Of a stretch of DNA of 64,000 nt, positions 6,282-41,110 are shown one piece after another. The notes beneath the pieces were generated by a model, which made no database searches, had not been told where the DNA came from, and saw only the letters and a list, made by a program, of their open reading frames with translations. Each line of letters begins with the position of its first letter. Within the stretch, counting starts at the first letter, position 1. Source of the stretch: Spongiibacter taiwanensis (GTDB lineage Bacteria > Pseudomonadota > Gammaproteobacteria > Pseudomonadales > Spongiibacteraceae); NCBI RefSeq assembly GCF_023702635.1, contig NZ_CP098455.1:2604001-2668000 (forward strand), in the 5' to 3' direction. The position numbers and the translations under genes are program-made.

Positions 6282-7319
6282 TTACCCGGCCATGTCGATC
6301 ACAAAGCGGTATTTCACATCGCCACTCACTACACGATCAAAGGCCTCGTTGATCTGGTCGGGGCGGATCAGCTCGATGTCGGCGACAATGCCCTTTTCCG
6401 CGCAGAAATTGAGCATTTCTCGGGTTTCCGCAATGCTGCCAATAATTGATCCCGACACTGCCTTGTTGCTCAGCACTGAGCGGGACATCAGATTGAGGGG
6501 CTGATCTGGAAGGCCGACCAGGCACAGGGTTCCGGCCCGGCGCAGGGTGCCCAGTAGGGCGTCAATATCGTGCTTGGCTGACACCGTATCCAGAATGAAA
6601 TCCAGGCCGCGGGTGCTGCGCATGGCCGCTTTATCGGTGGACAGCACCACCTTGTTGGCGCCGAGGCGGAGGGCATCGTCCGCCTTGGCCGTGGAGGTGG
6701 TAAACAGTGTCACCTCGGCGCCGAAGGCGCGGGCAAACTTGATCGCCATGTGTCCCAACCCGCCCAGACCGACAACACCCACGCGCATGCCGGGCCCGAC
6801 CTGCCAGCGCCGCAGTGGCGAGTAGGTGGTGATTCCTGCACAGAGCAGCGGGGCAACGCCTTTCGGGTCGAGGTTGTCTGGCACTTGCAGGGCGTAGCGG
6901 GCGTCCACGACGTAATTATTGGAGAACCCACCCTGGCTGAGGATGTTGGGGGCTTTGCGCTCCGGGCTGCCATAGGTGAGGGTAATGCCACCCTTGCAGT
7001 AATGATCTTCACCCTCCTGGCAGGGCTGGCATTGCCCGCAGGCATCGACAAAACAACCCACCGCAGCAAGATCCCCCACCTTGAAATGACGGACCTTGGC
7101 ACCCACACTGCGTACCCGTCCGACTATTTCATGGCCCGGCACCAGCGGAAAATGGGTGTTTCCCCATTCGTTGCGGCAGGAGTGGATGTCGGAGTGGCAC
7201 ACGCCGCAGTAGAGAATGTCGAGCAGCAGATCATGGTCGTCCATGTCCCGGCGCTGAAAGGTCATTTCAGCTAGCGGCAGGTCGGCGGTCTGGGCACCAA
7301 AGCCCGTTGCGTTGATCAT
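6282..7319 (-). CDS. Zinc-dependent NAD(P) alcohol dehydrogenase, YahK/cinnamyl-alcohol type
   Basis: Medium-chain dehydrogenase of 345 aa. The catalytic zinc site is visible in CGVCHSDIH and the GHE of PLVPGHEIVG, the structural zinc site in CGQCQPCQEGEDHYC, and the nucleotide fold in VGVVGLGGLGHMAIK. The pattern matches the broad-specificity aldehyde reductase/cinnamyl alcohol dehydrogenase group, which reduces aldehydes with NADPH. GAGGATAA precedes the ATG. It is a single gene, convergent with the CNNM gene (12-bp gap) and divergent from the mechanosensitive channel. The physiological aldehyde cannot be told from sequence. Confidence 0.92.
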   Translation of the reverse strand: MINATGFGAQTADLPLAEMTFQRRDMDDHDLLLDILYCGVCHSDIHSCRNEWGNTHFPLVPGHEIVGRVRSVGAKVRHFKVGDLAAVGCFVDACGQCQPCQEGEDHYCKGGITLTYGSPERKAPNILSQGGFSNNYVVDARYALQVPDNLDPKGVAPLLCAGITTYSPLRRWQVGPGMRVGVVGLGGLGHMAIKFARAFGAEVTLFTTSTAKADDALRLGANKVVLSTDKAAMRSTRGLDFILDTVSAKHDIDALLGTLRRAGTLCLVGLPDQPLNLMSRSVLSNKAVSGSIIGSIAETREMLNFCAEKGIVADIELIRPDQINEAFDRVVSGDVKYRFVIDMAG

Positions 7320-22667: not shown

Positions 22668-24023
22668 TCAGGCGGTCCCTGAGGCGTTGGTCGGTGCCCG
22701 GAAGCTGTGCGGGTCGATGTGATGACGGCGCAGCAGGCGATAAAACTCGGTGCGGTTGCGCCGGGCGAGGTGAGCGGCCTGGGTGACGTTGCCGGCGGTC
22801 ACGTGGAGCACCTCCATCAGGTAATCGCGCTCGAAGTGGTCCCGGGCGTCGGCAAAGGGGGCTATTTCGCCGTAGTCCTTCTTCAGCGCCCGCTTAACAA
22901 GATTCTCTGGGATGACCGCAGTGTGGGAGAGCACCATGGTTTGCTCAACCACATTGCGTAATTGACGGATATTACCGGGCCACGCGGCGGAAGCGAGTGC
23001 CTCCATGGCGCCCGCCGAGAAATGCCGCTTGGCTTTGCCGGGGGGCGTGAGGAGTTCCAGAAAGTGCTGGGCGAGCAGGGGGATGTCGTCGCGCCGGGCT
23101 TTGAGGGGCGGCAGTTCCAGCTGAACGACATTGAGGCGGTAGTATAAATCCTCGCGGAAGCGGCCCTCAGAGATCATTGCTTCCAGGTCCCGGTGGGTGG
23201 CGCAGATGACGCGCACGTCGATGGGGCGGGTAGCGGTAGACCCCACCGGACGCACTTCTCGCTCCTGCAGTACCCGCAGCAGTTTGACCTGAAACTCCAT
23301 TGGCATGTCGCCAATCTCGTCAAGGAACAGGGTGCCGCCCTCGGCGGCCTGAATGAGGCCCTGATGGTCGCGGGTTGCACCAGTGAAAGCGCCCTTGATG
23401 TGTCCGAACAGCTCGGACTCCAGCAGGTTGTCCGGCACAGAACTACAGTTGAGCGCAATGAAAGGTTTTGCTGCCCGGGGGCTGGCCTTGTGGATGGCGC
23501 TGGCCAGCAGCTCTTTGCCTGTGCCGCTCTCGCTTTGGATCAGTACACTCGCCTCGCTGTTGGCGACCATTTTGGCCTGCTGCAGGGTTTCGAGTACGGC
23601 GGCGTTACGGGTGACGATGTCGGCAAATGGGTTGTCGTCGGTGGTTGGCTGCTCGCGGCTGCCTGCCAGCGACAGGGCGCGATCGACTTCTTCCAGTAGA
23701 GCGGCGCTGTCAAAGGGTTTGGTGATGTAGCTGAAGGCCCCCTGTTTGGTAGCGTCGATGGCCTGGGGAATCGTGCCGTGGGCGGTAATAATAATGATGG
23801 GTAGGGAGGGCTGATTAAACTTGAGTTTTTCAAACAGAGTCATACCGTCCATGCCATCCATGCGCAGGTCGGTAATCACCAAGTGCGGCTGAAAGGTGGG
23901 GACGATGGCCAGCGCCTGCTCGGCGCTTTGCGCTAGCTCCACCGTGTGGTCGGCCGATTGCAGGCGCATTTTTAGCAGGTGGCGAATATCGTCGTTATCG
24001 TCGACAACCAGTAACCGTGACAC
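22668..24023 (-). CDS. glrR: Sigma-54-dependent response regulator, GlrR/QseF-like
   Basis: NtrC-type activator of 451 aa. The receiver domain starts SRLLVVDDNDDIRHLLKMRL with the phospho-acceptor Asp in VITDLRMDG near residue 51. A central AAA+ domain has ESGTGKELLASAIH (Walker A) and GAFTGA (sigma-54 contact), and a C-terminal Fis-type HTH ends near RRNRTEFYRLLRRH. GTG at 24023 follows AGGAGGAAAACT, a strong ribosome site, so it is preferred over the frame start at 24047. It closes the operon of sensor kinase and QseG-like lipoprotein, the arrangement of E. coli glrK-qseG-glrR, where GlrR drives the small RNA GlmY that raises GlmS. Here glmS itself lies in the same gene block. Confidence 0.92.
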   Translation of the reverse strand: MSRLLVVDDNDDIRHLLKMRLQSADHTVELAQSAEQALAIVPTFQPHLVITDLRMDGMDGMTLFEKLKFNQPSLPIIIITAHGTIPQAIDATKQGAFSYITKPFDSAALLEEVDRALSLAGSREQPTTDDNPFADIVTRNAAVLETLQQAKMVANSEASVLIQSESGTGKELLASAIHKASPRAAKPFIALNCSSVPDNLLESELFGHIKGAFTGATRDHQGLIQAAEGGTLFLDEIGDMPMEFQVKLLRVLQEREVRPVGSTATRPIDVRVICATHRDLEAMISEGRFREDLYYRLNVVQLELPPLKARRDDIPLLAQHFLELLTPPGKAKRHFSAGAMEALASAAWPGNIRQLRNVVEQTMVLSHTAVIPENLVKRALKKDYGEIAPFADARDHFERDYLMEVLHVTAGNVTQAAHLARRNRTEFYRLLRRHHIDPHSFRAPTNASGTA

Positions 24024-24065
24024 AGTTTTCCTCCTGGCCCGCTCCAATCAATGGGCCTAAAAGCA

Positions 24066-24639: not shown

Positions 24640-26157
24640 CTAGGTCGCGCTGGCGCGATTTTCCTGAGTATCCAATGGCAGGGTGAGCCGTAGACAGGCT
24701 CCCCGCTGGCTGTCGATAACGTCAATGTCCCCTCCATGCGCGGTGGCATATTGTTTCGCAATAGAGAGCCCCAAACCGGAGCCCTCGATATGGCGTTGCT
24801 GTTCCGTTCTGACTTTGTAAAAAGCGTCAAATATTCGCTGTCGTTCGCCGTGGGCAATACCGGGGCCGTCGTCTTCCACCTCAACAATCGCGTGCTGCGC
24901 CGTGGTGTGGAGCGAGATTGTGATTTTTCCCCCTTGCGGCGAAAACTTCACGGCGTTGGATAACAGGTTATCCAGTACCGTGGTGATTTTTCCCTCGTCT
25001 TCCAGCACGGTAGCCGGTTCAAGATCGGTTTCGAGAGTTATTGCTTTGGCACGCATTTGCAGTTTGTGTTCCCTAGTGACACCCAAAATTTGCTCATCGA
25101 GTCTCAAGGGGCTGTAGTCATAGGCTTGAAAGGGCTGCATGGACACGCTGTATTTGAGCAGATCTTCGATATGTTGCTGCAGACTGTCGCAATTGCGGTG
25201 CAGGATCTCGCATACCTCGCGCTGCTCATCGTTCAGGCCACCGGCGATCTCCTCGGAAAGCAGACTGGTGCCTTCACGGATACTGGTGAGTGGGGTTTTG
25301 AGTTCATGGGAAAAGTGGCGCAGAAAGTGTTGCTTTTGGGATTCCAACAACAGTAGCTGGCGGCGGAGCCACTCCAGGCGTGCGCCGAGTTCGCGAATGT
25401 CCTTGGGGCCGCGCAGACTGATTGGCCGGTCCAGATTGCCCCGGCCAATTTGCACGATGCTTCGGTCCAGCTCGCGAATGTAGCGGACCAGGGGCGGAAT
25501 GATTCTGGCGCCGAGTAGGGCAATGAGTAGGATGGCAATCAAGCCTTCCCACATTAGCGCTTGCCGGGTTTGGCGGGCCTTGGTCTTCATTTCGTTGACC
25601 CGACGCTCAACCTCCTGACTATTCACCGCAATCAGTCGGCGACCAATTTCGCGAATTTCGCCAAAAGATTCGATCGCGCTGGTGGCGGCCTCGCTGCCGG
25701 GTTGGGCGGTGGAAATCGTCGCGAAGGCGTGTTTTTCCAGCACCCGCATTTTCTCGATATCGGTGCGCAGCGACTCAGGAATATCCAGGGCGGCCAGGCG
25801 CTGGGAGGTTTCGTCAAACTGCAGGCGAAATTGGTTGTAGCTGGCGAGCAGGCTGTCGTTGCCCAGCACCTGATACACCCGGGCGCTGCGCTCCATGTCT
25901 TTGGTCAGATCGGAAATCGCAATGCTGTACTGCACTGCCCGGGTGGCGAAGCTGACCGCCTTCTGACCGTGGGTGGTCGCACGCTCAAGATAAACCCCGG
26001 CGACGACCAGCGCCGCCACCAGCAACAGCAGGAGGCCACCCAGGCAAATTGAGACGAACTGTGCCAGAGAACTGGGGTAGCGCTTGCGGCGACCGCCCCG
26101 GGCGGATTTGTCGCCTTTTGGCCGCTCAGCCACGTCCTTGTGCAACAGAATCGCCAT
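24640..26157 (-). CDS. glrK: Sensor histidine kinase, GlrK/QseE-like
   Basis: Inner-membrane kinase of 505 aa. The order is a short basic cytoplasmic start, membrane helix 1 (FVSICLGGLLLLLVAALVVA), a helical periplasmic domain, helix 2 (LMWEGLIAILLIALLGARII), HAMP, HisKA with HFSHELKTPLTSIREG (His near 282) and HATPase with LLSNAVKFSPQGG, EDDGPGIAHGE and EGSGLGLSIAKQ. ATG 26157 follows AGGGGGACAC. It phosphorylates the NtrC-type regulator two genes downstream. In E. coli the equivalent kinase senses envelope state and controls GlmS synthesis. Confidence 0.9.
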   Translation of the reverse strand: MAILLHKDVAERPKGDKSARGGRRKRYPSSLAQFVSICLGGLLLLLVAALVVAGVYLERATTHGQKAVSFATRAVQYSIAISDLTKDMERSARVYQVLGNDSLLASYNQFRLQFDETSQRLAALDIPESLRTDIEKMRVLEKHAFATISTAQPGSEAATSAIESFGEIREIGRRLIAVNSQEVERRVNEMKTKARQTRQALMWEGLIAILLIALLGARIIPPLVRYIRELDRSIVQIGRGNLDRPISLRGPKDIRELGARLEWLRRQLLLLESQKQHFLRHFSHELKTPLTSIREGTSLLSEEIAGGLNDEQREVCEILHRNCDSLQQHIEDLLKYSVSMQPFQAYDYSPLRLDEQILGVTREHKLQMRAKAITLETDLEPATVLEDEGKITTVLDNLLSNAVKFSPQGGKITISLHTTAQHAIVEVEDDGPGIAHGERQRIFDAFYKVRTEQQRHIEGSGLGLSIAKQYATAHGGDIDVIDSQRGACLRLTLPLDTQENRASAT

Positions 26158-26284
26158 GTGTCCCCCTGAAAAATGCCCCCTGCCGGTGTGTCGCGAAGGT
26201 CGATATATGACGATCAACAGACCGTCATTCTCGGTGTCGGTTCAATGTGACGTAGCGGCGGGGCGACAGCGCCGAGTAGCGAGA

Positions 26285-27487
26285 TCACAGGTGCTGCTGT
26301 AAGTAGCGCTGCATCTCCGGGGTGGGTCGGTCCGGGTGGAAACTGGCGCCGCCGTGGCTGATGCCCCGGCTCCAGGCCCAGATGACATTGCCCATGAACA
26401 AGGGGTTGTCGCGCATCCAGACCTGATCCATGGCGGCCAGCAAGGGCCTTACGTAGTCAAGCTGGTTGCCCGGTGCGCCGCGCCCTTTGCAGGGAGGGCC
26501 CTCACAGCGAACGTATTCGTGGACCGATGCCGCCGCTGGAATACCGACCTTGAAGGGCACCCCGGCCTGGGTGGCCCAGTCGTTTAGGGATTTGATCTGC
26601 CTGTGCGCCAGAGTCTGGTAGCGCGCTGGCGGGGTTAATTCGCCAAGTGGCGCGGAATCAAGGTCGTAGATTGGCGCAATCAGGTAGCCGTTGCCGTGGC
26701 GGCCTAAAATCTCGCTGAGAAGGGCCGCGCTGGCTGACTCGGGGTTGAGCGCATGGACCGGCGCAAATACCGAGAAGTAACGGCCCTTGGGGTGGCTGTC
26801 GCTGCGGCACTGGCCCGCCTCTCCGGCAAAGCGCTCGGCGATTCGCTGGTAAAAATAATACTGACCATTGCGACGATTCAGATTGAGCGGCTCCAGGTCA
26901 AACTGCACGCCGTCGATGTTTGGATCAGCGCAAAGCTGATCGCTGACCGTGTCGGCAAATCGACGCGCCATCTCTGGCGACAGGTCATCCATGCCCTTGA
27001 GGCTGCCAGCGTAATCGCCGTTAGTAACCCCGTCGATAATCGCCACGCTGGCGATGTTGTTCTCCGCCAGCCCTCGCCGATAGTGGCTGGCGCTGCTCGG
27101 CTGCCCCCGGGCCGGGGTCGCCAGGCTGAGCTTTAGATGCTCGGCCCGGCAGGCCGCTGGGCGATTGTTCGGGCAGTACATCTCCATGCTGCCGTGATAC
27201 ACGTACAGACTGCGAATCTGGTGGGCCTGTTCGGCCCCCCGGTTAAAGCGCAGAATATCCTGAATGAAATGGCCGCGATTAATTGATCGGGGCTGTCCCG
27301 GCGCCCGCAGGGTGTCGTACACCCAGGCGCTGTGGCCGTAGAAAGATTGGCTCTGCGCGGTGGGTGCTGCCGATACACTCTGGCACAGCAGGCCCAGAGG
27401 GAGCAGAGCTGCCACCAGCCACCCAGGCAGACGCTGCCTGGGTGGCGTGTTGCGGGCCGGGATCTGCGATGTGCAAATGACTCCCAT
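26285..27487 (-). CDS. Secreted protein with GH18-like active-site motif
   Basis: A 400-aa protein with a signal peptide (hydrophobic LPGWLVAALLPLGLLCQSVSA, cleavage near residue 41). IDGVQFDLEPLNLNRR resembles the DGxDxDxE strand of family 18 glycoside hydrolases and related TIM-barrel proteins, and IASVAIIDGVTN with FSVFAPVHAL would be further strands. This is motif-level likeness only; the catalytic Glu in FDLEPL is present. It follows glmS by 12 bp, so it is probably co-transcribed. A secreted amino-sugar glycosidase or a cell-wall binding protein would suit that partner, but that is inference. GGGGGGCGAT precedes the ATG. Confidence 0.65.
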   Translation of the reverse strand: MGVICTSQIPARNTPPRQRLPGWLVAALLPLGLLCQSVSAAPTAQSQSFYGHSAWVYDTLRAPGQPRSINRGHFIQDILRFNRGAEQAHQIRSLYVYHGSMEMYCPNNRPAACRAEHLKLSLATPARGQPSSASHYRRGLAENNIASVAIIDGVTNGDYAGSLKGMDDLSPEMARRFADTVSDQLCADPNIDGVQFDLEPLNLNRRNGQYYFYQRIAERFAGEAGQCRSDSHPKGRYFSVFAPVHALNPESASAALLSEILGRHGNGYLIAPIYDLDSAPLGELTPPARYQTLAHRQIKSLNDWATQAGVPFKVGIPAAASVHEYVRCEGPPCKGRGAPGNQLDYVRPLLAAMDQVWMRDNPLFMGNVIWAWSRGISHGGASFHPDRPTPEMQRYLQQHL

Positions 27488-29459: not shown

Positions 29460-29475
29460 GGCAAGGGCCATGCCA
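29460..29475 (-). promoter_or_regulatory. Sigma-54-type promoter upstream of glmS
   Basis: The minus strand reads TGGCATGGCCCTTGCC from 29475. The -24 GG and -12 GC are exactly ten bases apart, as the consensus TGGCAC-N5-TTGC requires. Transcription would start near 29449, about 120 nt before glmS. Upstream at 29560-29577 is TGTC-N10-TACA, one mismatch from the TGTC-N10-GACA site known for E. coli GlrR. Confidence 0.6.
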
Positions 29476-30316: not shown

Positions 30317-30923
30317 TGCGGGTCCTCACCACAATTCATGGCCTACATTTTTTGCCAAAGATTCATATTTACATTCTCGGCCAGCGTCGCTGAAAAGGAA
30401 GCGGGCGGAACACCGGTATTTCTTCATGTATGGCTATGCAAGAATCGATCACAACATGACAGACCGATAACGGAAAATGTGCTGGCAGTATGACGGCAAG
30501 GCTGTAGAAATTCGTCATGAATTCGTTATGAGAGTGCCGTGGTGATACCGTAAAAAAATGCCTCTGTCGCTGCATGGCGACGCTAAAAATTTATGTAAAA
30601 CAATAACTTATAATTTCTCTCTTTCTCTGTGTCCGGTAGTGGCAACAGTGCTGCCCAGTCCCAACCCGGATCGCCCGTAGGTCCATCTGGTCAACCCCCG
30701 CCATTGCTGGGTTTCTGGCTTTTGGCATGCAAGTTGCCATGCTTGGGCCACACACGGCCTGGTCAGGTATCAATGCGCTGACCAACCGGGTTTTAAAATT
30801 TCGGCCAGAAGAATTTAGAGACATATTTTTATCGTTAGATAAAGGCTGTCTCAGTGGTGTGGAACTGAACTTGAAATTCAACATCGTTATCACTGGATTT
30901 TTCTCAAAGGGAGTATGGAATTA
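30317..30923. other. 607-bp divergent region before the exopolysaccharide operon
   Basis: No gene is seen. AT-rich DNA around 30580-30620 contains TATAAT near 30610, a possible -10 box. A sigma-54-like site lies at 30723-30738. The leader after it is about 175 nt and I recognise no riboswitch in it; in particular the conserved GEMM (cyclic di-GMP) motifs are absent. Confidence 0.5.
30723..30738 (+). promoter_or_regulatory. Sigma-54-like promoter of the exopolysaccharide operon
   Basis: TGGCATGCAAGTTGCC has GG and GC separated by ten bases, matching the -24/-12 consensus. Transcription would begin near 30749, about 175 nt upstream of the first gene. The motif is partly palindromic (TGGCA/TGCCA), so a repressor site is the alternative. 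Confidence 0.45.
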
Positions 30924-32369
30924 ATGAGAACTGCATTTGCGCCCATTTTGTTAACGGCTGCAGTGATTGCGGCAAACGCAGCATTCGCACAGCAACCCGA
31001 ATCGACTCAGTCCAATGCGATTCCGACTGGGGCCACCGCTGAAGCGCCTCAAACAGTACAAAACACAGCAGTGAACAATACCGCCCCTCAGAACCGGGTG
31101 GGCGGTAGCTGGTTGCTGTTTCTTGAGGAGCTTCGCGAAGTGGCGAAGGACTCGCCGGAGATGCAGGCAGAGGCTGCGCGGCTCGATGCCAAAAAAGAAG
31201 GGCTGTATGCCGAGCGTGGTGATCTCGGCCTGGACTTTAGTCTTAGCCATACTCGGTATCCAGAGGGTTCGGGTTCGCAGTCAGGTGGCGGCGGCTTTAC
31301 CGCGCTGGAGGAATACTCGGAAGCGCGACTCTCCCTTGATCTCATGCACCTGCTCGCCCGGCGTGGTTCTAAAATTGACAGTGCTAAGGCAAAGGTTGAA
31401 GGCGCCGAGGCGGAGCTTAACCTGAAGGCCACCGAAGCCACGGTACGTCTGATGCGGGATGCGGTGACGGCCTGGACTTACCAGTATCGCCGGGAAGCGC
31501 TGAACAACGCGCTGCACAATATCGAAAGTGCAAACGATAAGTTGCGTCTGTCCGAGCGGGCGGGTCTGCCGGAAATTACCAAGGCGACACCAACAAAAGT
31601 CGCCGAAGCAATCATTCTTCGTAGTGAAATCGAGAACAACCTGCAGGCGATTTCTCCGCTGATTCCGAATATTCCCAATTTGCCCACCGATTTCTCGGTG
31701 CTCCCTCTGACCCCCCCCGATGGCGATGCAATTTTTAAACTCGCCACCCAGGATATGAAGGCCCAGGTGATGAAGTCTGAGTCGCTGGCTTACAAAGAGG
31801 AAGCGGAGTCCCTGCGCGGCAACGGCGTTCAGCTCAGTGTTTACGGCGGCTTTGTTGAGCAGAAAGTGCGCACAGGAGCGGGGACTGAAGACGGCCCCGT
31901 GTACGGGGCGCAGCTGACCGTGCCTCTGGGCAGTAATCAACACCACTTGCGCAAAGCGGCGGAGTTTGAAGCCCACGCTGCGAAGCTGGGTGCCCTGGCG
32001 GCGGTCCGCGACAGCCAGCGGACACTGGTGGAGTTGCGTGACCACTGGGCAGCGGCGGTGGCTCGCTTGAATCAGGCGCAGGAGAACATGCGCCAACAGG
32101 CCGCGCTGCTGGAAAAGATGAATCGTCTTGCGGACTCACCCGGTGCCGGTCGCGCGCCAGAGCCCTGGGAAGTGGATATGCAAGCAGCGGCGTTCTGGAA
32201 TGCGGTGGCTGACGTTTGGCAAAAGCGTGCGGAGTGGATTAAGGACGCGCTGACCTGGGGGCTGTTGAGCCCGGAGTATTTGCAAATGAACGCGCGCTCA
32301 CCCAATCCCGAGGGCAGCCAGTCTCTCTGTGCCCCCTATGGCGCCTGTAGCGAAATTGCAGGTATTTGA
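30924..32369 (+). CDS. TolC-like outer-membrane efflux protein of an exopolysaccharide system
   Basis: A 481-aa exported protein with signal peptide MRTAFAPILLTAAVIAANAAFA. Two repeats of long amphipathic helices and short beta strands are visible: EARLSLDLMHLLARRGSKID then AEAELNLKATEATVRLMRDA, and later GAQLTVPLGSNQHHLRKAAE then RTLVELRDHWAAAVARLNQA. This is the layout of the OEP/TolC family of trimeric outer-membrane ducts. ATG 30924 has AAGGGAG ten nt upstream; ATG 30915 is too close to it. As first gene of a four-gene operon with an HlyD adaptor and a membrane glycosyltransferase, it would form the outer-membrane exit for the polymer or a linked cargo. Confidence 0.8.
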   Translation: MRTAFAPILLTAAVIAANAAFAQQPESTQSNAIPTGATAEAPQTVQNTAVNNTAPQNRVGGSWLLFLEELREVAKDSPEMQAEAARLDAKKEGLYAERGDLGLDFSLSHTRYPEGSGSQSGGGGFTALEEYSEARLSLDLMHLLARRGSKIDSAKAKVEGAEAELNLKATEATVRLMRDAVTAWTYQYRREALNNALHNIESANDKLRLSERAGLPEITKATPTKVAEAIILRSEIENNLQAISPLIPNIPNLPTDFSVLPLTPPDGDAIFKLATQDMKAQVMKSESLAYKEEAESLRGNGVQLSVYGGFVEQKVRTGAGTEDGPVYGAQLTVPLGSNQHHLRKAAEFEAHAAKLGALAAVRDSQRTLVELRDHWAAAVARLNQAQENMRQQAALLEKMNRLADSPGAGRAPEPWEVDMQAAAFWNAVADVWQKRAEWIKDALTWGLLSPEYLQMNARSPNPEGSQSLCAPYGACSEIAGI

Positions 32370-32397: not shown

Positions 32398-33819
32398 ATG
32401 GTTCTTTCAGTAAGCAAGCGTGACGCCCAGCGCAGTGATCAGGGGCAGCCCGGTGTCCAGCTGAAGAGTTACGAGTTGCTGGAGTTGCGGGAATTTGAAC
32501 GGGCCACTGACGAGGCCGTGGCGGTAAAAGCGGTGCTGGGCGAGCCCCTCGCCGGGATTGGTAACCGCGACGAGGCGCTGGTGCCGTTGGTGATCGTTGG
32601 TTATGACCAGCTCAAAATTGAGCAGATTTTGAAGGATGAACGCCGGGGCTTTGGTGCGCTGCGGCCCATTGCTGTGGTGGGGCTTGATGTCGCCGGCCTG
32701 TCAGCCGATATCCTGCATCTGGCCGATGTGTTTTTACCGCCCCGCCCCGGTAAGCAGGATCTGCTCGGGGTGGCCCACAGCCTGGCAGTGCTGTCGACCC
32801 ATATTGATCGCCTGCCCCGGGCACCCCGGGATGTGTCGCTGACTCTGCTCCAGTTTTTGTATACCCGCGGCCGGGATGTGGAGCCCCATGTGGCACCGGA
32901 GAGCCCCATAGCCTATCGCTTTCCGCTGGCGGAGAACCTGCTGGAATGCGATACGCTGGAGTGCTGTTCGCTGCTGCAGGACATGGCGTCCCGCGGCTTG
33001 CTGGACACCCGGCATATTGATCGGCTTTTTGTGTGCCCCGACTGCAGTAGCTATCGGGTGCCGGTAAAGGAGCTGTGTCCGGAATGTGGCTCCAGTCATC
33101 TGGATGCGGAAGAGTCCATTCATCATTTCCGCTGCGGCTTTGTTGGTCCGGAGTCTGAGTTTGCCGGTAAAGACGAGCCGAGCTGCCCTAAGTGTTTCCA
33201 AGAGCTCCGCCATATTGGGGTGGAGTACAACCGCCCCGGCCGCTTTGCGGTATGCCGGCAATGTAACTACTGGGCCACCGAGCCCGATCTGGCCGCCTGG
33301 TGTGCCGATTGCAATACGCATCATGCACCGGCCGACCTGGCGGTGGTCCAGATCGACAACTATGCCCTTGCCCAGGGAGGCACGGACGTTGCCCGCCGTG
33401 GCCGCTGGACACCCCAGCCGGTTGATAATGATCGTCGCATTGAGCCGACCGTGGGTGCGCCGACACCGCGCAAGTTGTCGGATAACGACTACTCTCGGGA
33501 GCTGGCATTCAAGGTGGTGGAGCTGGCCCAGCAAAGCGGTCGGCCGATGACGATTTACAAGGCCGTTCTCAACAGTGGGCAGGGTGACAAGGCATTGGCC
33601 GATGCCCGTGAGGTGTTGCGCGGCATACTGCGTGATTCGGATGTGGTGGTGAACACCGGCGAAGCGGAAATGCTGATTCTGCTGCCCGCGCACGATGTGG
33701 CGGATGTGCCTTCGGCCGCCCATTTGGAGGCGGAGGCCGAGAAGCGTGGTGCCATTGATCTGCGGGTAACGGTGGTCGATGGCGGCCACAGCCCTGCCGG
33801 TAAAATCAAGCAGGCGTAG
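32398..33819 (+). CDS. TackOD1 metal-binding protein with a degenerate GGDEF-like domain (MxdA-like)
   Basis: A 473-aa cytoplasmic protein. Residues about 60-110 look like a remnant receiver fold (LVIVGYDQ, IAVVGLDVAGLS). A TackOD1 zinc-type region follows at about 200-320: LLDTRHIDRLFVCPDC, LCPECGSSHLD, IHHFRCGFVGPESEF, CPKCFQELRHIGVEYNRP, CRQC and CADC. The C-terminal 110 residues follow the order of a GGDEF domain (TIYKAVLN, LRGILRDSDVVVNTGEAEM, LILLPAHD) but have TGEAEM where GGDEF should be, so diguanylate cyclase activity is not expected. Shewanella MxdA, in an operon with a glycosyltransferase and a fusion protein, likewise has a non-canonical GGDEF and is reported to bind cyclic di-GMP; by analogy this is a regulator of the synthase. 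Confidence 0.8.
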   Translation: MVLSVSKRDAQRSDQGQPGVQLKSYELLELREFERATDEAVAVKAVLGEPLAGIGNRDEALVPLVIVGYDQLKIEQILKDERRGFGALRPIAVVGLDVAGLSADILHLADVFLPPRPGKQDLLGVAHSLAVLSTHIDRLPRAPRDVSLTLLQFLYTRGRDVEPHVAPESPIAYRFPLAENLLECDTLECCSLLQDMASRGLLDTRHIDRLFVCPDCSSYRVPVKELCPECGSSHLDAEESIHHFRCGFVGPESEFAGKDEPSCPKCFQELRHIGVEYNRPGRFAVCRQCNYWATEPDLAAWCADCNTHHAPADLAVVQIDNYALAQGGTDVARRGRWTPQPVDNDRRIEPTVGAPTPRKLSDNDYSRELAFKVVELAQQSGRPMTIYKAVLNSGQGDKALADAREVLRGILRDSDVVVNTGEAEMLILLPAHDVADVPSAAHLEAEAEKRGAIDLRVTVVDGGHSPAGKIKQA

Positions 33820-33828
33820 GGCGCAGCC

Positions 33829-35148
33829 ATGTATGAGTTAATTAACTCCGCCATTGAGTACGTTGAAGCGAGCCTGGCGATGCTGTTCGCATTGTCGCCG
33901 ACCCAGCTGGTGATGTTGCTGTGGCCGTTCCTGCTGCTATCGGTGCCGCGCTACCTGCTCACCGAGTTTGTTGCCTTGTTTCAGGCCATGCGGCCTGAGC
34001 CGCGGGCCAAGGCCGCGTTTCGTCGGCAGCTGCAGGCCAATCCACCCTTTGTCTCCATTCTTCTGCCGGGCTTTAACGAGCGGGATACCCTGGAGACCAC
34101 CGTCCTGTCGTTGCGGGAGCAGACTTATCCGAACTTTGAAATCATCGTGGTGAACGATGGTTCCACTGACGGCATGGGCGAGGTGGGTCGCAAGTTGGCC
34201 CGGCGGGGCTGGGTGCGCTACTTCGAGCACCGGATGCGCGGGGGTAAGTCTTCGGCGGCAAACTTTGCCCTCAACGCGGCTCGCGGTGAATATGTGGTGA
34301 TCTGCGATGCCGACTCGACCTTTGACCGGGATTCGATCTGGCACCTGCTGGTGGAATTCTACCGGCCCGACGTAGCGGCGGTGGCAGGCAACCTGAGGGT
34401 GCGCAATGCGGATTCGAATCTGCTCACCCGCATGCAGGCCATGCAGTATGTTTTCAGTATCGGGTTGGGCCGGCGCGTATCGGCCATGCTGGGCATTCTG
34501 TTTATTGTCTCGGGGGCCTTTGGTGCGGTGCGTCGCTCAACGCTGGTGAATACCGGCGGTTGGGAGACGGGGCCGGGCGAAGATGGTGACGTGACGGTTA
34601 AAGCACGCATTGCTGGCGGCGATGTCGCCTTTGCCCCCGAAGCCATGTGTATGACCGACGCTCCGGATGCCTGGTGGCCATACTATCGCCAGCAATTGCG
34701 CTGGAATCGCAGCCTGATTCGCTTCAACGTACGCAAGTACGGCTGGTTGTTTAATCCTTTTCGGCGGCCCTTCGATGTGCGCAACCTGATCGCCAACATC
34801 GATACCGTGCTCTACCAGCTGGTGTTAGGTCTGACCTTTCCTTTCTATGTGGTGTGGATGTATATGCACCACAGCGAAATATTCTTCCAGCTGATGTTGG
34901 TGGTGTTAATTCTCTACACCGCAATTAACTACCTGCACTTTCTGGTTGCCCTGGCCCTGAGTGAACGGCCGATGGTCGACTTGAAAATGTTCCCCTATGT
35001 TCCGCTCTACGGCTTTTTTATGGGCTTTTACCTGCGTGTAGTGCGCTTGATTGCCTATGCCGATGAGTACTTTTTCCGCACGTCTTATCGGGAGTCCTAT
35101 GTGCCGGAGCATGTTCAGAAACAATCAAGGATGTATGACCCATGGTAA
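33829..35148 (+). CDS. Family 2 membrane glycosyltransferase (processive polysaccharide synthase type)
   Basis: A 439-aa inner-membrane enzyme. One or two N-terminal helices (SPTQLVMLLWPFLLLSVPRY) precede the GT-A domain with SILLPGFNERDTLE, VVNDGSTD (near 108), CDADS (near 159), GPGEDGD (near 249) and QQLRWNR (near 288), the D, DxD, ED and QxxRW elements of cellulose/hyaluronan/PNAG-type synthases. Several C-terminal helices (VLYQLVLGLTFPFYVVWMYM onward) form the translocation channel. It starts 9 nt after the TackOD1 gene and overlaps the adaptor gene by 7 nt, so all four are co-expressed. The donor sugar is unknown. Confidence 0.92.
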   Translation: MYELINSAIEYVEASLAMLFALSPTQLVMLLWPFLLLSVPRYLLTEFVALFQAMRPEPRAKAAFRRQLQANPPFVSILLPGFNERDTLETTVLSLREQTYPNFEIIVVNDGSTDGMGEVGRKLARRGWVRYFEHRMRGGKSSAANFALNAARGEYVVICDADSTFDRDSIWHLLVEFYRPDVAAVAGNLRVRNADSNLLTRMQAMQYVFSIGLGRRVSAMLGILFIVSGAFGAVRRSTLVNTGGWETGPGEDGDVTVKARIAGGDVAFAPEAMCMTDAPDAWWPYYRQQLRWNRSLIRFNVRKYGWLFNPFRRPFDVRNLIANIDTVLYQLVLGLTFPFYVVWMYMHHSEIFFQLMLVVLILYTAINYLHFLVALALSERPMVDLKMFPYVPLYGFFMGFYLRVVRLIAYADEYFFRTSYRESYVPEHVQKQSRMYDPW

Positions 35149-36464
35149 ATAAATCAGAGCGTCATCACGGCCGTGGCCCGGCCCTAAACCAATCTCGTTC
35201 CAACGTGCCCAGTACCCGGGCGAGTACGTCGCCGGCGACCTCAAGAGGTGTCTCGGCGGGCGCTGGTCAGGTGCGTCCCTGGCGCCAATGGCACACTGCC
35301 AGTCAGGGCGCGGCGCCGGCGGCCCTGGAAGTCGGGATGCCGCGCAAACCCCAATGGGGGCGCTGGATCTACTTTGCCATTCTGTTGAGCCTGGCGGTTA
35401 TTGCAGCGCGCTTCGTTTACGTCAATTTCTTCTGGTACGCCGCCGATGGCTTTGTCAGTGGGCGTCAATACCATGTGTCGCCCTCGGACACGGTATCGAT
35501 CAAGGAGATCTTTGTCAGCCCGTCAGACTCGGTGGAGGAGGGACAGCTGCTAGTGAAGTTGAGCTCGCCAATGCTGGTGCAGTCGCTGGCCAAGAACGAA
35601 GCGGAAATTGCCCGCCTGCAAAGTGACCTTGCCCAGCGCTCAATGACCAACATGGGTAACGAGTCGCAACTGGTTGCCAAGCGCGATTCGCTGGATGCCG
35701 AGATGGATTATCTGGAGTCGAAATACTTTCAGGAAACCCAGCAGCTGACTGCCCTGCAGGAGCTGGTGGAGAAAGGGGCCTCCCAGCGCGGAAATCTGGA
35801 TGAGCTGCAAAGCCAGCGCAACAAAACCTGGTCTGAATACAAGCGCGTGGAAGCGGAGCTTCGTTCAGCCCAGGCGCAGCTGGCCAGTATTCGCCGCAGC
35901 AAAGAAGACGACGCCTCACCTGAAATTTCAACCCGTCTCGCCTCGCTGAAAGAGCTGCATGCCTCTATCGAGGAACAGCTGTCGGCGTTGGAGTTGCGCG
36001 CGCCTACCAGTGGTACTGTGGCGCGAGTGCCGGTGTCCAAAGGTGATGTGTTGCGCGCCGGTGAGGCGGCGGTTGAGCTGGTCGACAAGCAGGAGCTGCG
36101 CGCCTATCTGTACTTCCCGCCGGCAGCCCAGGAAAAACTGCAGCCGAATATGGAAATTCCGGTTACCCGTGCCGACGGCTCAGAGGTGCGCCTGGTGGTG
36201 AGCAAGGTTTATCCGTCGACCGCATCGCTGCCGGAAGAATTTCGCAATAACTATCAGCCAGACCGATCTGCGGTGGTGGTGGAAGCCACGCCAGTAGAAG
36301 GGGATGTCTCCGAGTTGGCCATGACGTCGGGCACGCCTATCAAAGGGCGTATTCCCCGGTGGTCACTGCCCCTCGACTTTGACATGGAAATTCCCACAGA
36401 GGATGGCCCGGGAAAGGGCCCGGCGCAGGGCAATGACAAGGAGCGTGTTGCCGCTGCGCGTTAG
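35142..36464 (+). CDS. HlyD-type periplasmic adaptor of the exopolysaccharide system (MxdC/Alg44-like)
   Basis: A 440-aa protein. A basic, Ser-rich cytoplasmic N terminus of about 65 residues is followed by one membrane helix (WIYFAILLSLAVIAARFVYV), then the biotinyl-lipoyl-like half (VSPSDTVSIKEIFVSPSDSV with EEGQLLVKL), a coiled-coil hairpin (LAKNEAEIARLQSDLAQRSM to EAELRSAQAQLASIRR), the second lipoyl half (LRAPTSGTVARVPVSKGDVL) and a beta-barrel domain. It would link the glycosyltransferase with the TolC-like duct. The ATG lies inside the last codons of the glycosyltransferase gene. A terminator follows 45 nt after the stop. Confidence 0.9.
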   Translation: MVNKSERHHGRGPALNQSRSNVPSTRASTSPATSRGVSAGAGQVRPWRQWHTASQGAAPAALEVGMPRKPQWGRWIYFAILLSLAVIAARFVYVNFFWYAADGFVSGRQYHVSPSDTVSIKEIFVSPSDSVEEGQLLVKLSSPMLVQSLAKNEAEIARLQSDLAQRSMTNMGNESQLVAKRDSLDAEMDYLESKYFQETQQLTALQELVEKGASQRGNLDELQSQRNKTWSEYKRVEAELRSAQAQLASIRRSKEDDASPEISTRLASLKELHASIEEQLSALELRAPTSGTVARVPVSKGDVLRAGEAAVELVDKQELRAYLYFPPAAQEKLQPNMEIPVTRADGSEVRLVVSKVYPSTASLPEEFRNNYQPDRSAVVVEATPVEGDVSELAMTSGTPIKGRIPRWSLPLDFDMEIPTEDGPGKGPAQGNDKERVAAAR

Positions 36465-38016: not shown

Positions 38017-38195
38017 CCTAGCAGGCTGTTGATTTTCGTTTTCGAGGCGGCCAATGCAAGCGGAACGCCGCCCGGACAAAAACAGGCGAAAAACGGTGGG
38101 ACCGACCCTCGGGTTTACACTTAGTAAATGAGCATTTTGAGCCTGTTTTTAACGCCGCAGTGGCAACGCAGATAGAAAATCAACAACCTGCTAGG
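38017..38195. repeat. MITE-like element with 21-bp terminal inverted repeats
   Basis: The ends 38017-38037 and 38175-38195 are inverted copies matching at 20 of 21 positions (CCTAGCAGGCTGTTGATTTTC). The 179-bp body carries an inner pair, AAACAGGC and GCCTGTTT, and no open frame. The right end contains the stop codon of the SqdB fusion gene. The size, TIRs and lack of coding capacity fit a non-autonomous insertion element; the parent transposon family is not identified. Confidence 0.75.
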
Positions 38196-40644
38196 CAGTG
38201 CTGCCGGCCAGGGCCGTATGACCTGCTAGGGCCACCGCTTTTTCGCAGTCTGCGATGACTGACAAGGCCTGCTCAATGCGCGCTTCGGTTTCATAGAAGG
38301 GCACGCCGAAGCGCAGCAACATCCGCTCTTGCCCGTGGTGCAGGTCCTTGATGCATTTGCAGTGGACGCCCCGCTGGTTCATGGCCTGATAAAGCGGGTA
38401 GGGGTCATAGTTTTCAAAGGCGATGGTCACTACACCGGCCTCCCATTCCAGCGCATATTGCTGGTTGAGAAAGCGGTGGCTGATGCCCCGTTGCCCAAAT
38501 AGATCGGTAAGGCCCTGGCGCAGGCGCCCGGCCAGGTTGCGGCTGCGCTTGCGAATGGTCTGATCGCCAATCTCGCGGTGCAGTTTGAGGGCCGCCTCCA
38601 GCCCGGAAAAGACGGCGAAGTCCATACCGCCCGCTGGGCAAAACCCCTGGGTATCTTTGCCATCGAGCAGGGGAGAGCCAGACCAGTGCAGCGCCCCGGC
38701 GCGTTCTCTGAAGCGGCTGTTGGTCCAGATCAGCCCGGTGCCCCGGGGGCCAAACAGCCATTTGTGAGCGCTGCCAAATACGGCGTCGGCGTGATCAAAC
38801 GGTGGCGGCATCAGGCCCAGCGACTGGGAAACATCGAATAACACGCAGCAATCCGGGCGAACCTCGCGAACGATCTTGGCCCATTGGGCCACCGGGAAGA
38901 TGTAACCGCTGTCGAAGGCGATATGGGAAAAGAACGCCACATCGGGTTTCAGACTGCGCACCCGCTCAGCAAAGGCATCGCTGCTGTTGATCTCCGCCTC
39001 GCGCAGGTAGTGCACCTCAAACTCGGGGAGTCTTTCAAAGGCACCGGTGCCGCCAATATGCTCGTGGGGGGTGGTGAGCACCCGCATTTTCCAACCGTTG
39101 GCGGCGGCCTCCCTGGCCAGGTTCAAGGCCAGCAGGTTAGAACACTGAGAGGCGCCGGCGCTGACATGAAGGCTGTGCTCGGGCGCGGGCCACAACTCGG
39201 CAGCCAGCTTCATGGCGTTCATCAGATGGCGCCGGCCCTCGCCGTATTGCCCCAGCGGGTAGGCCATAATGTCGCTGTCCTGAAAGGCGTCGATCGCCGC
39301 AATCACTGACGATGCCGGGCTGCCCAGCGTGCCGGGGTTGAGGTTGATATTGCGGTAGGGAAACTCCAGCTGACGAAGTTCCTCCCAGCGGCTTTCTTCG
39401 CTGTTGTGCTGGCGCACGCTGTCGAGGGACACCACCGCGCTGGCGGGGGCTTCTTCTTCACTGCTCTGCCAGTCGGTGCTGGGCGCGAAGCGCTGTGGAT
39501 CAATCTGCGTCTGGTGGGGCAGCAGCATCGCCAGGGTCTGCTCGATAACCTGGGCAAGGGTGTCATGATGGCCACGGCTTTCGAGGTGATTGCGTTCGAT
39601 ATCGTAGCCGAGCTTGCTGGATTCGCACTCCTGGCGGGGATTGTATTTGCCCCGCTGAATTGCAATCTGAAAGCCCTTTTTCTCCAGTTGTGACTTGATC
39701 GTATCGGCGAGTTCGTTCACCGAGAAGGAGGTTTCGGTGAGGTGGTTGATGACTCGATGCTCCCCCGGTGCGGCCGGATCGTCCCAGAGTTCGGCCAGGG
39801 AGCTAACAGAGTCATTGAGTGACATCAGGCCGGTGCGCTGGTGGCCGCTGCCATACACAGTCAGCGGCTGGCCGCTCAGGGCCTGGGTGAGAAAGCGGTT
39901 GACCACCGTACCAAAAAATTCGTCGTAATCCAGTCGGGTGAACAGGGCGGGGTGGTCGCCAATTTCTTCTGTCCAGGTACCGAAAATCGTGGACTGCATT
40001 ATGTCGGTGATGCGCAGCTTCCACATCCGGGCGGCAATGGAGAGGTAGTTGGTGTCGTTGATTTTGGACGCGTGGTAGAAATCGTCGGACTGCCGCGGAT
40101 AGGGCACCGCGTGCTGGGCGGTTTTACCCTTGTAGCTCGGCTTGAAGTAACCCTCGGCAATGTCCAACCCAGATTTGGCATATTCGCCAAAGGAGCCGAG
40201 CTTGATGATGTGGCAGTTCGGCGCATTCTCCTTCACCGCCCACAGCAGCCGCATGTTGCCCTCTTCGTTATTGCGCAGGGTGTAGAGGGCGTCCTCCTTA
40301 CTGCGCATCGACAGGGCGGCCGAGCACTGCTGGGCCAAATGATAAATCGCGGCGGGTTGCCGGGACTTGATCAGCGCATCCAGTGAATCGCTGGTGACAT
40401 CCAGGTGGAGATACTCCAGGTTGGTTAACTGGTGGTGTTTGCGGCAGGCCGCCAGCCGTTCACTGGGGCTGAGAACCGGTAACAGGCTACCGGCCCCGAG
40501 TTTTTTCGCCAGCCGCCGCCTGGCCAGGTTGTCGGCAATGACCACTGGTCGTTGCGGATTACGTTTGGCCAACTTCAGGGCCAGTGGCCAGCCCAGGTAG
40601 CCGTCGCCGCCTAGTACGATAATTGGTGCAGAGTTGGTCTTCAT
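38191..40644 (-). CDS. SqdB-like nucleotide-sugar epimerase fused to a class V aminotransferase
   Basis: An 817-aa two-domain enzyme. Residues about 1-400 form an extended short-chain dehydrogenase with GGDGYLGWPLALKL (NAD fold), YPRQSDDFYHASKINDTNYL (the YxxxK dyad), RLDYDEFFGTVVNRF and the C-terminal TETSFSVNELAD, all closely following UDP-sulfoquinovose synthase SqdB/SQD1. Residues about 440-800 are a PLP class V fold (LNPGTLGSPASSVIAAID, LFDVSQSLGLM, SAHKWLFGPRGTGLIW with the PLP Lys near 628, and a C-terminal RFGVPFYETEARIEQAL). SqdB adds sulfite to UDP-glucose; class V enzymes include cysteine desulfurases, sulfinate desulfinases and C-S lyases, so the second domain could supply sulfur. 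ATG 40644 has AAGGGGGCGA upstream. The stop codon lies inside a MITE end. Confidence 0.85.
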   Translation of the reverse strand: MKTNSAPIIVLGGDGYLGWPLALKLAKRNPQRPVVIADNLARRRLAKKLGAGSLLPVLSPSERLAACRKHHQLTNLEYLHLDVTSDSLDALIKSRQPAAIYHLAQQCSAALSMRSKEDALYTLRNNEEGNMRLLWAVKENAPNCHIIKLGSFGEYAKSGLDIAEGYFKPSYKGKTAQHAVPYPRQSDDFYHASKINDTNYLSIAARMWKLRITDIMQSTIFGTWTEEIGDHPALFTRLDYDEFFGTVVNRFLTQALSGQPLTVYGSGHQRTGLMSLNDSVSSLAELWDDPAAPGEHRVINHLTETSFSVNELADTIKSQLEKKGFQIAIQRGKYNPRQECESSKLGYDIERNHLESRGHHDTLAQVIEQTLAMLLPHQTQIDPQRFAPSTDWQSSEEEAPASAVVSLDSVRQHNSEESRWEELRQLEFPYRNINLNPGTLGSPASSVIAAIDAFQDSDIMAYPLGQYGEGRRHLMNAMKLAAELWPAPEHSLHVSAGASQCSNLLALNLAREAAANGWKMRVLTTPHEHIGGTGAFERLPEFEVHYLREAEINSSDAFAERVRSLKPDVAFFSHIAFDSGYIFPVAQWAKIVREVRPDCCVLFDVSQSLGLMPPPFDHADAVFGSAHKWLFGPRGTGLIWTNSRFRERAGALHWSGSPLLDGKDTQGFCPAGGMDFAVFSGLEAALKLHREIGDQTIRKRSRNLAGRLRQGLTDLFGQRGISHRFLNQQYALEWEAGVVTIAFENYDPYPLYQAMNQRGVHCKCIKDLHHGQERMLLRFGVPFYETEARIEQALSVIADCEKAVALAGHTALAGSTA

Positions 40645-41110
40645 TGTTGTCGCCCCCTTGGCTAATTTTTGGTGAAGCAGCGGTACACCTCGCATCCAGC
40701 TGCTGGCGCGTTCAGTGCGCCCAATGACTTGGGTTGCTGCAGGGGTGGCAAAGCCTGTGCCAAAAAATAAAAATGATATAAATCAGGTTGTTATGTTGAT
40801 TTTGTGTAAATTTTCGACGGCGTGTGTTGGCAATCGGCAACACCGATTTTTGTCCAGATGACGGTTTTGTGTCGTTGAGCGTCAGGGCGGGCTGGGGCGG
40901 TCGGGATGGATGCGCCCCAAAGCCGGTAATACCGGGGGGAGCGCCGACCTGGCGCGGCTGACCGAGCGGAAGGTGCCGCTGTGTGGGGTCTGTATCTATT
41001 TGGCGACGGGGGTGGGAGTGCCCGGCGGCATGACTTTGGTGGCGGCCAGGGATGACGCCATCGGGGGAATCGGCTAAGGTACGCCACTTTTATTCAAGAG
41101 TGTTCAAGCA
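40645..41110. other. 466-bp divergent region before the SqdB fusion and an acyltransferase gene
   Basis: No gene is seen. An AT-rich stretch at 40762-40815 is the likely promoter zone, and GC-rich DNA follows to the acyltransferase start. No operator or structured RNA is recognised. Confidence 0.4.

Follow-up and report, generated by a model that had tools for sequence, protein, structure and literature searches.

SqdB-type enzymes use sulfite to make the sulfonated sugar of sulfolipids and of archaeal N-glycans. Among class V pyridoxal phosphate (PLP) enzymes, SufS binds PLP through H123, D200, Q203, and K226 and has R379 as its substrate arginine. PgaA, of the poly-N-acetylglucosamine (PNAG) systems, is a tetratricopeptide repeat (TPR) plus beta-barrel outer membrane protein. 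Here we describe a gene that joins an SqdB-like half to a class V PLP half. It lies in a 64,000-nucleotide stretch of Spongiibacter taiwanensis DNA (contig NZ_CP098455.1, positions 2,604,001 to 2,668,000), which we call the window and to which all coordinates refer unless another locus is named. The fusion is rare and has diverged uniformly, and both promoter sites and gene context tie it to exopolysaccharide synthesis. Its product is probably an unusual sugar building block, perhaps a sulfur-bearing one.

An SqdB-PLP fusion in two phyla

The fusion gene (P0001; 38191 to 40644, minus strand) is an open reading frame of 817 codons without an internal stop. An in-frame ATG further upstream would give 834 amino acids, starting from 40695, and most fusion homologs start near the 817-residue start. 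Residues 8 to 392 (39469 to 40623, minus strand) form an SqdB/SQD1-type NAD-dependent short-chain dehydrogenase/reductase (SDR) domain. The NCBIfam UDP-sulfoquinovose synthase model NF041015 matches this same span (344 bits; cut-off 575) and had no other match in the window's genome at E 0.001. SQD1 (PDB 1i24) covers residues 6 to 394 in a sequence search (E 3.2e-73), and the Pfam Epimerase family covers residues 8 to 295 (E 2.4e-14). The class V PLP domain occupies residues from about 420 to 805 (38230 to 39387, minus strand), with an Aminotran_5 match at residues 479 to 790 (E 4.4e-17).

Full-length fused homologs are 53 to 71% identical in relatives and 42 to 44% identical in Bacteroidota. 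Therefore, the SqdB-PLP fusion is real and not the product of misassembly or a frameshift; end-to-end homologs in two phyla also rule out a chance open reading frame. The initial annotation had read the gene as such a fusion and had proposed a survey of genomes for it and its neighbors. Pfam, NCBIfam, PDB, and the fused homologs all bear out the fusion, and the survey found it in both phyla, mostly with polysaccharide genes.

A search of 38 relatives found the full-length fusion in 4 of 18 genus genomes (including the window's own) and in all three other genomes of the family. A non-exhaustive scan of 84,980 species genomes by short peptides returned 10 fusion loci. Those in Spongiibacteraceae (Spongiibacter thalassae, Litorivivens lipolytica, and two metagenome-assembled genomes [MAGs]) were already among the ones from the search of relatives. 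The others were in Bacteroidota (42 to 44% identity): Mucilaginibacter, Pedobacter, three Sphingobacterium MAGs, and one uncultured organism. In profile surveys, the fusion turned up in 1 of 229 Gammaproteobacteria genomes (the window's own) and in 5 of 390 genomes of the window's order, all from its family, with unfused SqdB relatives in 12 genomes. It was also in 3 of 201 genomes from the order of the Pedobacter genome, one of them new (G456), and in 1 of 296 from the phylum of G269, which was the seed genome G269 itself. The G456 fusion is 99% identical to that of L032, and the two may be one species. Altogether, the fusion is in seven Spongiibacteraceae genomes (including the window's) and seven Bacteroidota genome records, and these scans and surveys revealed none outside Spongiibacteraceae and Bacteroidota. 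Matches in 106 of 72,556 plasmid records never reached 80% of the query, and all 20 of those listed hit the SqdB half only. No title or abstract opening among the open-licence papers listed described this fusion.

We built one tree per half, adding 16 unfused rows to the SqdB tree and 13 unfused class V rows to the PLP tree; some branches were long. The 13 fused rows formed a single group (support 100 and 100), and the Bacteroidota rows were together in both trees. The simplest reading of these sequences would be a single fusion event followed by horizontal transfer. Among the matches listed for the 229 Gammaproteobacteria, where scoring covered the top few first-look candidates of each genome, the PLP half had no close unfused relative; the best partial matches were about 56 bits.

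Conserved and replaced residues in the two halves

To describe the SqdB half, we compared 14 fusions with 20 unfused homologs; among the rows, L032 to L034 and L054 are closely related to one another. The SDR signature is present: G12, G15, and G18 of G-XX-G-XX-G are invariant in 11 rows, and Ser/Thr151 and the YxxxK residues Tyr190 and Lys194 are kept in all 14 fusions. So are His102, Glu154, Tyr155, and His191. In the archaeal enzyme Agl3, alanine substitutions at H95, R101, M145, Y182, or K186 abolish activity, T144A remains active, and S180A, T185A, E147A, and Y148A are impaired, according to the mutant descriptions in PMC4388408. We located R101 and M145 through the primer sequences printed there (EQR and GTMGEY). 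The SQD1/Agl3 signature is given as [ST]MG in Table 1 of a review (PMC8987622).

The position of Agl3 R101 is Cys107 in all 14 fusions (codon 40324 to 40326, minus strand; EQR motif). It is Arg in 7 and Pro in 13 of the 20 unfused homologs, and Cys in none. Therefore, this position is variable across the wider family, and Cys is confined to the fusions. The position of M145 is Phe152 in 14/14 fusions but Met in 17/20 unfused homologs, so that the fusions do not have the [ST]MG signature. The initial annotation had named an SqdB domain lacking the sulfite-binding residues as refuting its reading. Of the five Agl3-inactivating positions that we compared, the essential His, Tyr, and Lys are there, but R101 and M145 are replaced in every fusion. 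Other columns diverge just as uniformly. Gln105 replaces a residue that is Glu in 18/20 unfused homologs (Gln in 1), Asp188 is at the position of Agl3 S180 (Ser in 20/20), Arg270-Thr271 replaces Thr (16/20) followed by Arg (19/20), and His301 replaces Gln (20/20). Glu127-Glu128 is also uniform in the fusions, unlike most or all unfused rows.

These residue columns separate fused from unfused forms, whereas the NF041015 cut-off does not. We scored ten of 19 unfused homologs, and all were below 575 bits: 332 for the Sinorhizobium meliloti pSymB homolog and 335 to 471 for the nine others. Therefore, the cut-off is not diagnostic, and we did not use it to decide if the fusion is a UDP-sulfoquinovose synthase. 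The pSymB homolog that it excludes (L055, 2495 to 3715) is one that we take to be a genetically tested SqdB, so many SqdB proteins of bacteria may escape the model. A separate observation concerns the 13 unfused relatives with Pro at the R101 position (L027, 9276 to 10463; L039 to L047, L057, L073, and L074). They may have a substrate different from that of SQD1, and the one in L027 sits within a polysaccharide gene cluster.

The PLP half was modelled alone (pLDDT 82.5, pTM 0.84). Its best VIA-align matches (Z 31 to 34) were EgtE, cysteine desulfurases, C-DES, SufS, CsdA, and PvdN. The EgtE carbon-sulfoxide lyase 8irz was the top row (Z 33.5, 3.4 Å, 357 residues aligned), tied with desulfurases. 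Desulfurases, a selenocysteine lyase, C-S lyases, and PvdN made up the best 50 rows, with no aminotransferase among them. The PLP-binding residues and substrate arginine of the cysteine desulfurase/CsdA type are also present. In alignment with E. coli SufS and CsdA, H529, D604, Q607, K628, R778, and N503 correspond to SufS H123, D200, Q203, K226, R379, and N99, and K763 stands for R359. SufS and CsdA reached just 17 and 10.5 bits with the profile, in matches to the N-terminal part, and the C-terminal placing rests on the multiple alignment. Lys628 (codon 38761 to 38763, minus strand) is the predicted Schiff-base lysine. The initial annotation had placed this half nearer to sulfur enzymes than to sugar aminotransferases. 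Fold and cofactor residues agree with that, with kynureninase and one aminotransferase lower in a Foldseek search. Named families were matched at E up to 1e-6 by some of 11 fusions (EgtE by 8, a cysteine desulfurase family by 4, and PvdN and SufS by 3 each). However, we did not assign the PLP half to EgtE, SufS, or PvdN because all scores were far under the cut-offs.

The catalytic cysteine of desulfurases lies in SSGSACTS (class I) or RXGHHCA (class II), as given in the motif description of PMC8300815. Across 13 fusions, no cysteine column is invariant except those of C107, in the SqdB half, and C764, in the PLP half. Cys764 (codon 38353 to 38355, minus strand) is within an invariant H761-x-K763-C764-I-K766. 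It is the positions of these two cysteines, rather than their number, that are interesting.

Promoter sites and polysaccharide genes

Sigma-54 promoters have the -24/-12 consensus TGGCAC-N5-TTGC. We searched for it in the correct orientation within 450 bases upstream of genes. The only exact match in the window (40748 to 40762, minus strand) begins 118 bases before the fusion start. Sites with one mismatch precede a second glmS gene (29461 to 29475, minus strand) and an exopolysaccharide operon (30723 to 30737, plus strand) that begins with an outer membrane efflux protein (OEP) gene. Across the whole window, sites with up to two mismatches are no commoner than chance (80 found, 103 expected). 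However, sites with at most one mismatch were upstream of the fusion in 7/7 Spongiibacteraceae genomes, of glmS in 7/7, and of the OEP gene in 6/6 readable cases, for 20 of 20 regions. The gene starts used here are approximations, and in L029 and L030 the OEP gene runs off the end of the stretch. Of 4,000 random 450-base stretches from the same loci, with the true sites included, 200 (5%) had such a site, 49 of them an exact one. None of five Bacteroidota regions tested had such a site. The shared promoter sites join the fusion, amino-sugar supply, and the exopolysaccharide operon in a single likely regulon. Judged from these sequences, it likely unites the second glmS, a two-component system, a GH18-like protein, the operon, and the fusion. 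The sites are in the window and in L021, L023, L028 to L030, L035, L079, and L080, covering seven Spongiibacteraceae genomes.

The operon is on the plus strand. It encodes the TolC-like OEP (30915 to 32369; PF02321), a TackOD1-domain protein (32398 to 33819; PF18551, E 7.1e-62), a PgaC/NodC-like family 2 glycosyltransferase (GT2; 33829 to 35148; PF00535; TIGR03937 172 bits, under the cut-off of 422), and an HlyD/EmrA-like membrane fusion protein (35142 to 36464; PF13437). The fusion converges on it, with a gene for a 382-amino-acid protein of no known family in between. The rest of the putative regulon is on the minus strand. The second glmS of the genome (27500 to 29362) encodes SIS and GATase domains and scores 840 bits with TIGR01135 (857 for the other copy). 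Conserved beside it is a gene for a 400-amino-acid protein (26285 to 27487) whose sole PDB match in a profile search at E up to 5 was a weak one to the GH18 protein 6xyz (E 0.0048). This protein had no Pfam match, and its Litorivivens homolog had a sub-cut-off match to Ntox10 (20.2 of 26.8 bits). The two-component system consists of a sensor histidine kinase (24640 to 26217; HisKA and HATPase_c) and a sigma-54-activating response regulator (22668 to 24047), which is 63% identical to the one at 7197 to 8543 of L029 (Response_reg and Sigma54_activat).

The same four of 18 genus genomes carry the fusion together with the TackOD1 and GT2 genes; these four may be related species and so are not independent evidence. 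All three are likewise present in the family genomes G018 and G019. The 70%-complete MAG G020 had no TackOD1 or GT2 match, and it has an OEP gene fragment at a contig end.

In six of the seven Bacteroidota loci (L031 to L034, L036, and L078, which is G456), the fusion is next to GT2 and TPR-YaiO genes. The order is response regulator-like, actin-like, weakly HEAT-like, GT2, TPR-YaiO, fusion, and a protein with DUF4838/GH20b domains, as established by clustering and BLAST, with Pfam domains taken from L036 alone. The seventh locus, L037, has instead a major facilitator superfamily gene and a gene for a hydrophobic protein without a known family. The GT2 proteins of Spongiibacteraceae and Bacteroidota are merely 22 to 24% identical. 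Therefore, we dropped their likeness as proof of one pathway, and the common theme is a synthase-type polysaccharide system, not an identical operon. With the sigma-54 sites, the genus co-occurrence, and a polysaccharide operon in a second phylum, the exopolysaccharide link is stronger than the initial annotation had it.

Some observations stand apart. The Bacteroidota operon itself (L036, 2694 to 14667; also L031, L032 to L034, and L078) resembles an unfamiliar synthase-type polysaccharide system. The TackOD1 family was described from archaeal response regulators and is seen in some bacteria too, according to the family description in PMC5847659; the protein at 32398 to 33819 is inside a bacterial polysaccharide operon. 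Directly downstream of the fusion and convergent with it is a small gene in L029 (12534 to 12938; sub-cut-off PNPOx_N match, 22.6 of 28.1 bits) and in L028 (12523 to 12942), both from Spongiibacteraceae genomes.

Proposed chemistry, alternatives, and known systems

The reading that we favor, tentatively and with a probability of about 0.35, is a two-site sugar-nucleotide enzyme that adds sulfur at C6 of a UDP-sugar and feeds a sigma-54-controlled exopolysaccharide pathway. We infer the substrate, sulfur donor, relay, and product as follows. The SqdB-type half would oxidize C4 of a UDP-hexose and remove the C6 hydroxyl to give a 5,6-ene, the reaction that Agl3 carries out when sulfite is absent. 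The PLP half, acting like a desulfurase or C-S lyase, would liberate sulfur from cysteine or from a cysteine-sugar adduct. Sulfur would then go onto C6, perhaps relayed by the invariant Cys764 and Cys107. This would yield a UDP-6-deoxy-6-thio (or later oxidized, sulfonated) hexose or hexosamine, consumed by the neighboring glycosyltransferase. Only the extra glmS and the PgaC-like glycosyltransferase hint at a hexosamine substrate, UDP-GlcNAc. A bolder version would make the protein a self-contained thiosugar-nucleotide synthase, and this we consider doubtful. In it, a Cys764 persulfide (or a cleaved cysteine-sugar adduct) would deliver sulfur to C6 of UDP-GlcNAc through the Cys107-bearing SqdB half, and the resulting 6-thio or 6-sulfo hexosamine would enter a new sulfur-bearing exopolysaccharide.

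Several results weigh against a sulfur-adding enzyme. Both desulfurase motifs are absent, with H-x-K-C-I-K in place in 13/13 aligned fusions, and Cys764 aligns beside SufS R359, off the persulfide cysteine position. Two invariant cysteines of 11 are no more than expected when 201 of 817 columns are invariant. The PLP half is only weakly similar to any named family, with EgtE (TIGR04343) the best at 56.8 bits, short of the 400-bit cut-off, which does not make it an EgtE. PvdN, which is not known to be a sulfur enzyme, ties with its best structural matches. The best 50 Foldseek matches of the whole model include a kynureninase at rank 30 and the aminotransferase 3kgw at rank 45. The SqdB half of that model is poor (pLDDT below 50 in residues 105 to 127 and 151 to 211). 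Finally, G021 and G023, from other families, have a weaker adjacent TackOD1-GT2 pair (29 to 33% identity) without the fusion, so the pair does not require it.

The initial annotation favored a different sulfur source. In that scheme, the PLP half would act as a cysteine sulfinate desulfinase, and its sulfite would be used by the SqdB half for UDP-sulfoquinovose or a sulfonated amino sugar. The SqdB half is indeed related to SQD1 along its whole length, and the PLP fold is near that of CsdA, annotated as a cysteine sulfinate desulfinase. Desulfination is not known to need the persulfide cysteine, which counts in favor of this scheme. However, cysteine dioxygenase (PF05995) was found in none of 25 genomes searched, 12 of them fusion bearing (the Bacillus subtilis control was positive), so cysteine sulfinate appears to have no obvious source in these genomes. 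PAPS_reduct genes (PF01507, a family that includes members with other functions) are present in 11 of the 12 fusion genomes, all except G269, suggesting that sulfate assimilation probably supplies sulfite already. Sulfite from cysteine sulfinate is therefore neither clearly available nor clearly needed. Together, these two results make cysteine-derived sulfur seem likelier than free sulfite out of a sulfite-generating PLP half. The Cys and Phe that replace R101 and M145 in all 14 fusions also argue against the desulfinase, since the mutant descriptions in PMC4388408 make both residues essential in Agl3. We regard it as unlikely; the exact version in the initial annotation is possible, and less likely than the C6 sulfur addition proposed above.

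An aminotransferase making an amino sugar without sulfur seems quite improbable. The Pfam label of the PLP half is Aminotran_5, and 3kgw is among the best 50 Foldseek matches. But at E up to 0.001 the fusion matched only Aminotran_5, Epimerase, and GDP_Man_Dehyd, not the DegT_DnrJ_EryC1 family, and the best 50 VIA-align rows were of other enzymes. Furthermore, the SQD1 mechanism proposed in PMC4388408 re-reduces the 4-keto group, so no free ketone would remain. The amino-sugar context (second glmS and PgaC-like GT2) favors an aminotransferase, although it would suit a hexosamine polymer regardless of the atom that the fusion adds. Very doubtful, in our view, is an amino-acid-decorated sugar, in which the PLP half, with UstD- or PvdN-like logic, would make an amino-acid-derived carbon nucleophile or alter a sugar-joined amino acid. 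PvdN is among the nearest matches, the 5,6-ene would be a Michael acceptor, and the SqdB site is rewired. However, we know of no parallel for sugar nucleotides, and no neighbor examined supports it. A sulfur-bearing sugar nucleotide is the best of these several readings.

A PLP partner with a sulfur-mobilizing fold, a uniformly changed active site, and a tightly linked exopolysaccharide regulon suggest a possible second bacterial route for sulfur onto sugar nucleotides. Such a route would supply its own sulfur and end in a secreted polymer. A single protein allows the chemistry to be tested in a tube, and the promoter signature points to the rest of the pathway.

How does the fusion compare with described systems? 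Like SQD1, Agl3, and SqdB, it has homology over the whole domain, GxxGxxG, YxxxK, the Ser/Thr, Glu154/Tyr155, and His102. Unlike them, it has C107 for R101, F152 for M145, D188 for S180, RT for TR at 270 to 271, and H301 for Gln, as well as an attached PLP domain and polysaccharide genes alongside. It shares with SufS and CsdA (the latter also a cysteine sulfinate desulfinase) the fold, at Z of about 31 to 34, and H529, D604, Q607, K628, and R778. However, identity is 15 to 19%, there is no class I or II catalytic-Cys motif, and K763-C764-I-K766 stands in place of R-x-G-H-H-C. For the PLP half, the EgtE C-S lyase tops both the NCBIfam matches and the VIA-align rows (8irz), but the score is far from its cut-off (56.8 of 400 bits), and here a sugar-nucleotide enzyme is attached. 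With PNAG-type (Pga) synthase systems it has in common a PgaC-like GT2 nearby and, in Bacteroidota, a TPR and beta-barrel outer membrane protein. In contrast to Pga systems, the GT2 is under the PgaC cut-off, and the Spongiibacteraceae operon has OEP, TackOD1, and HlyD proteins instead.

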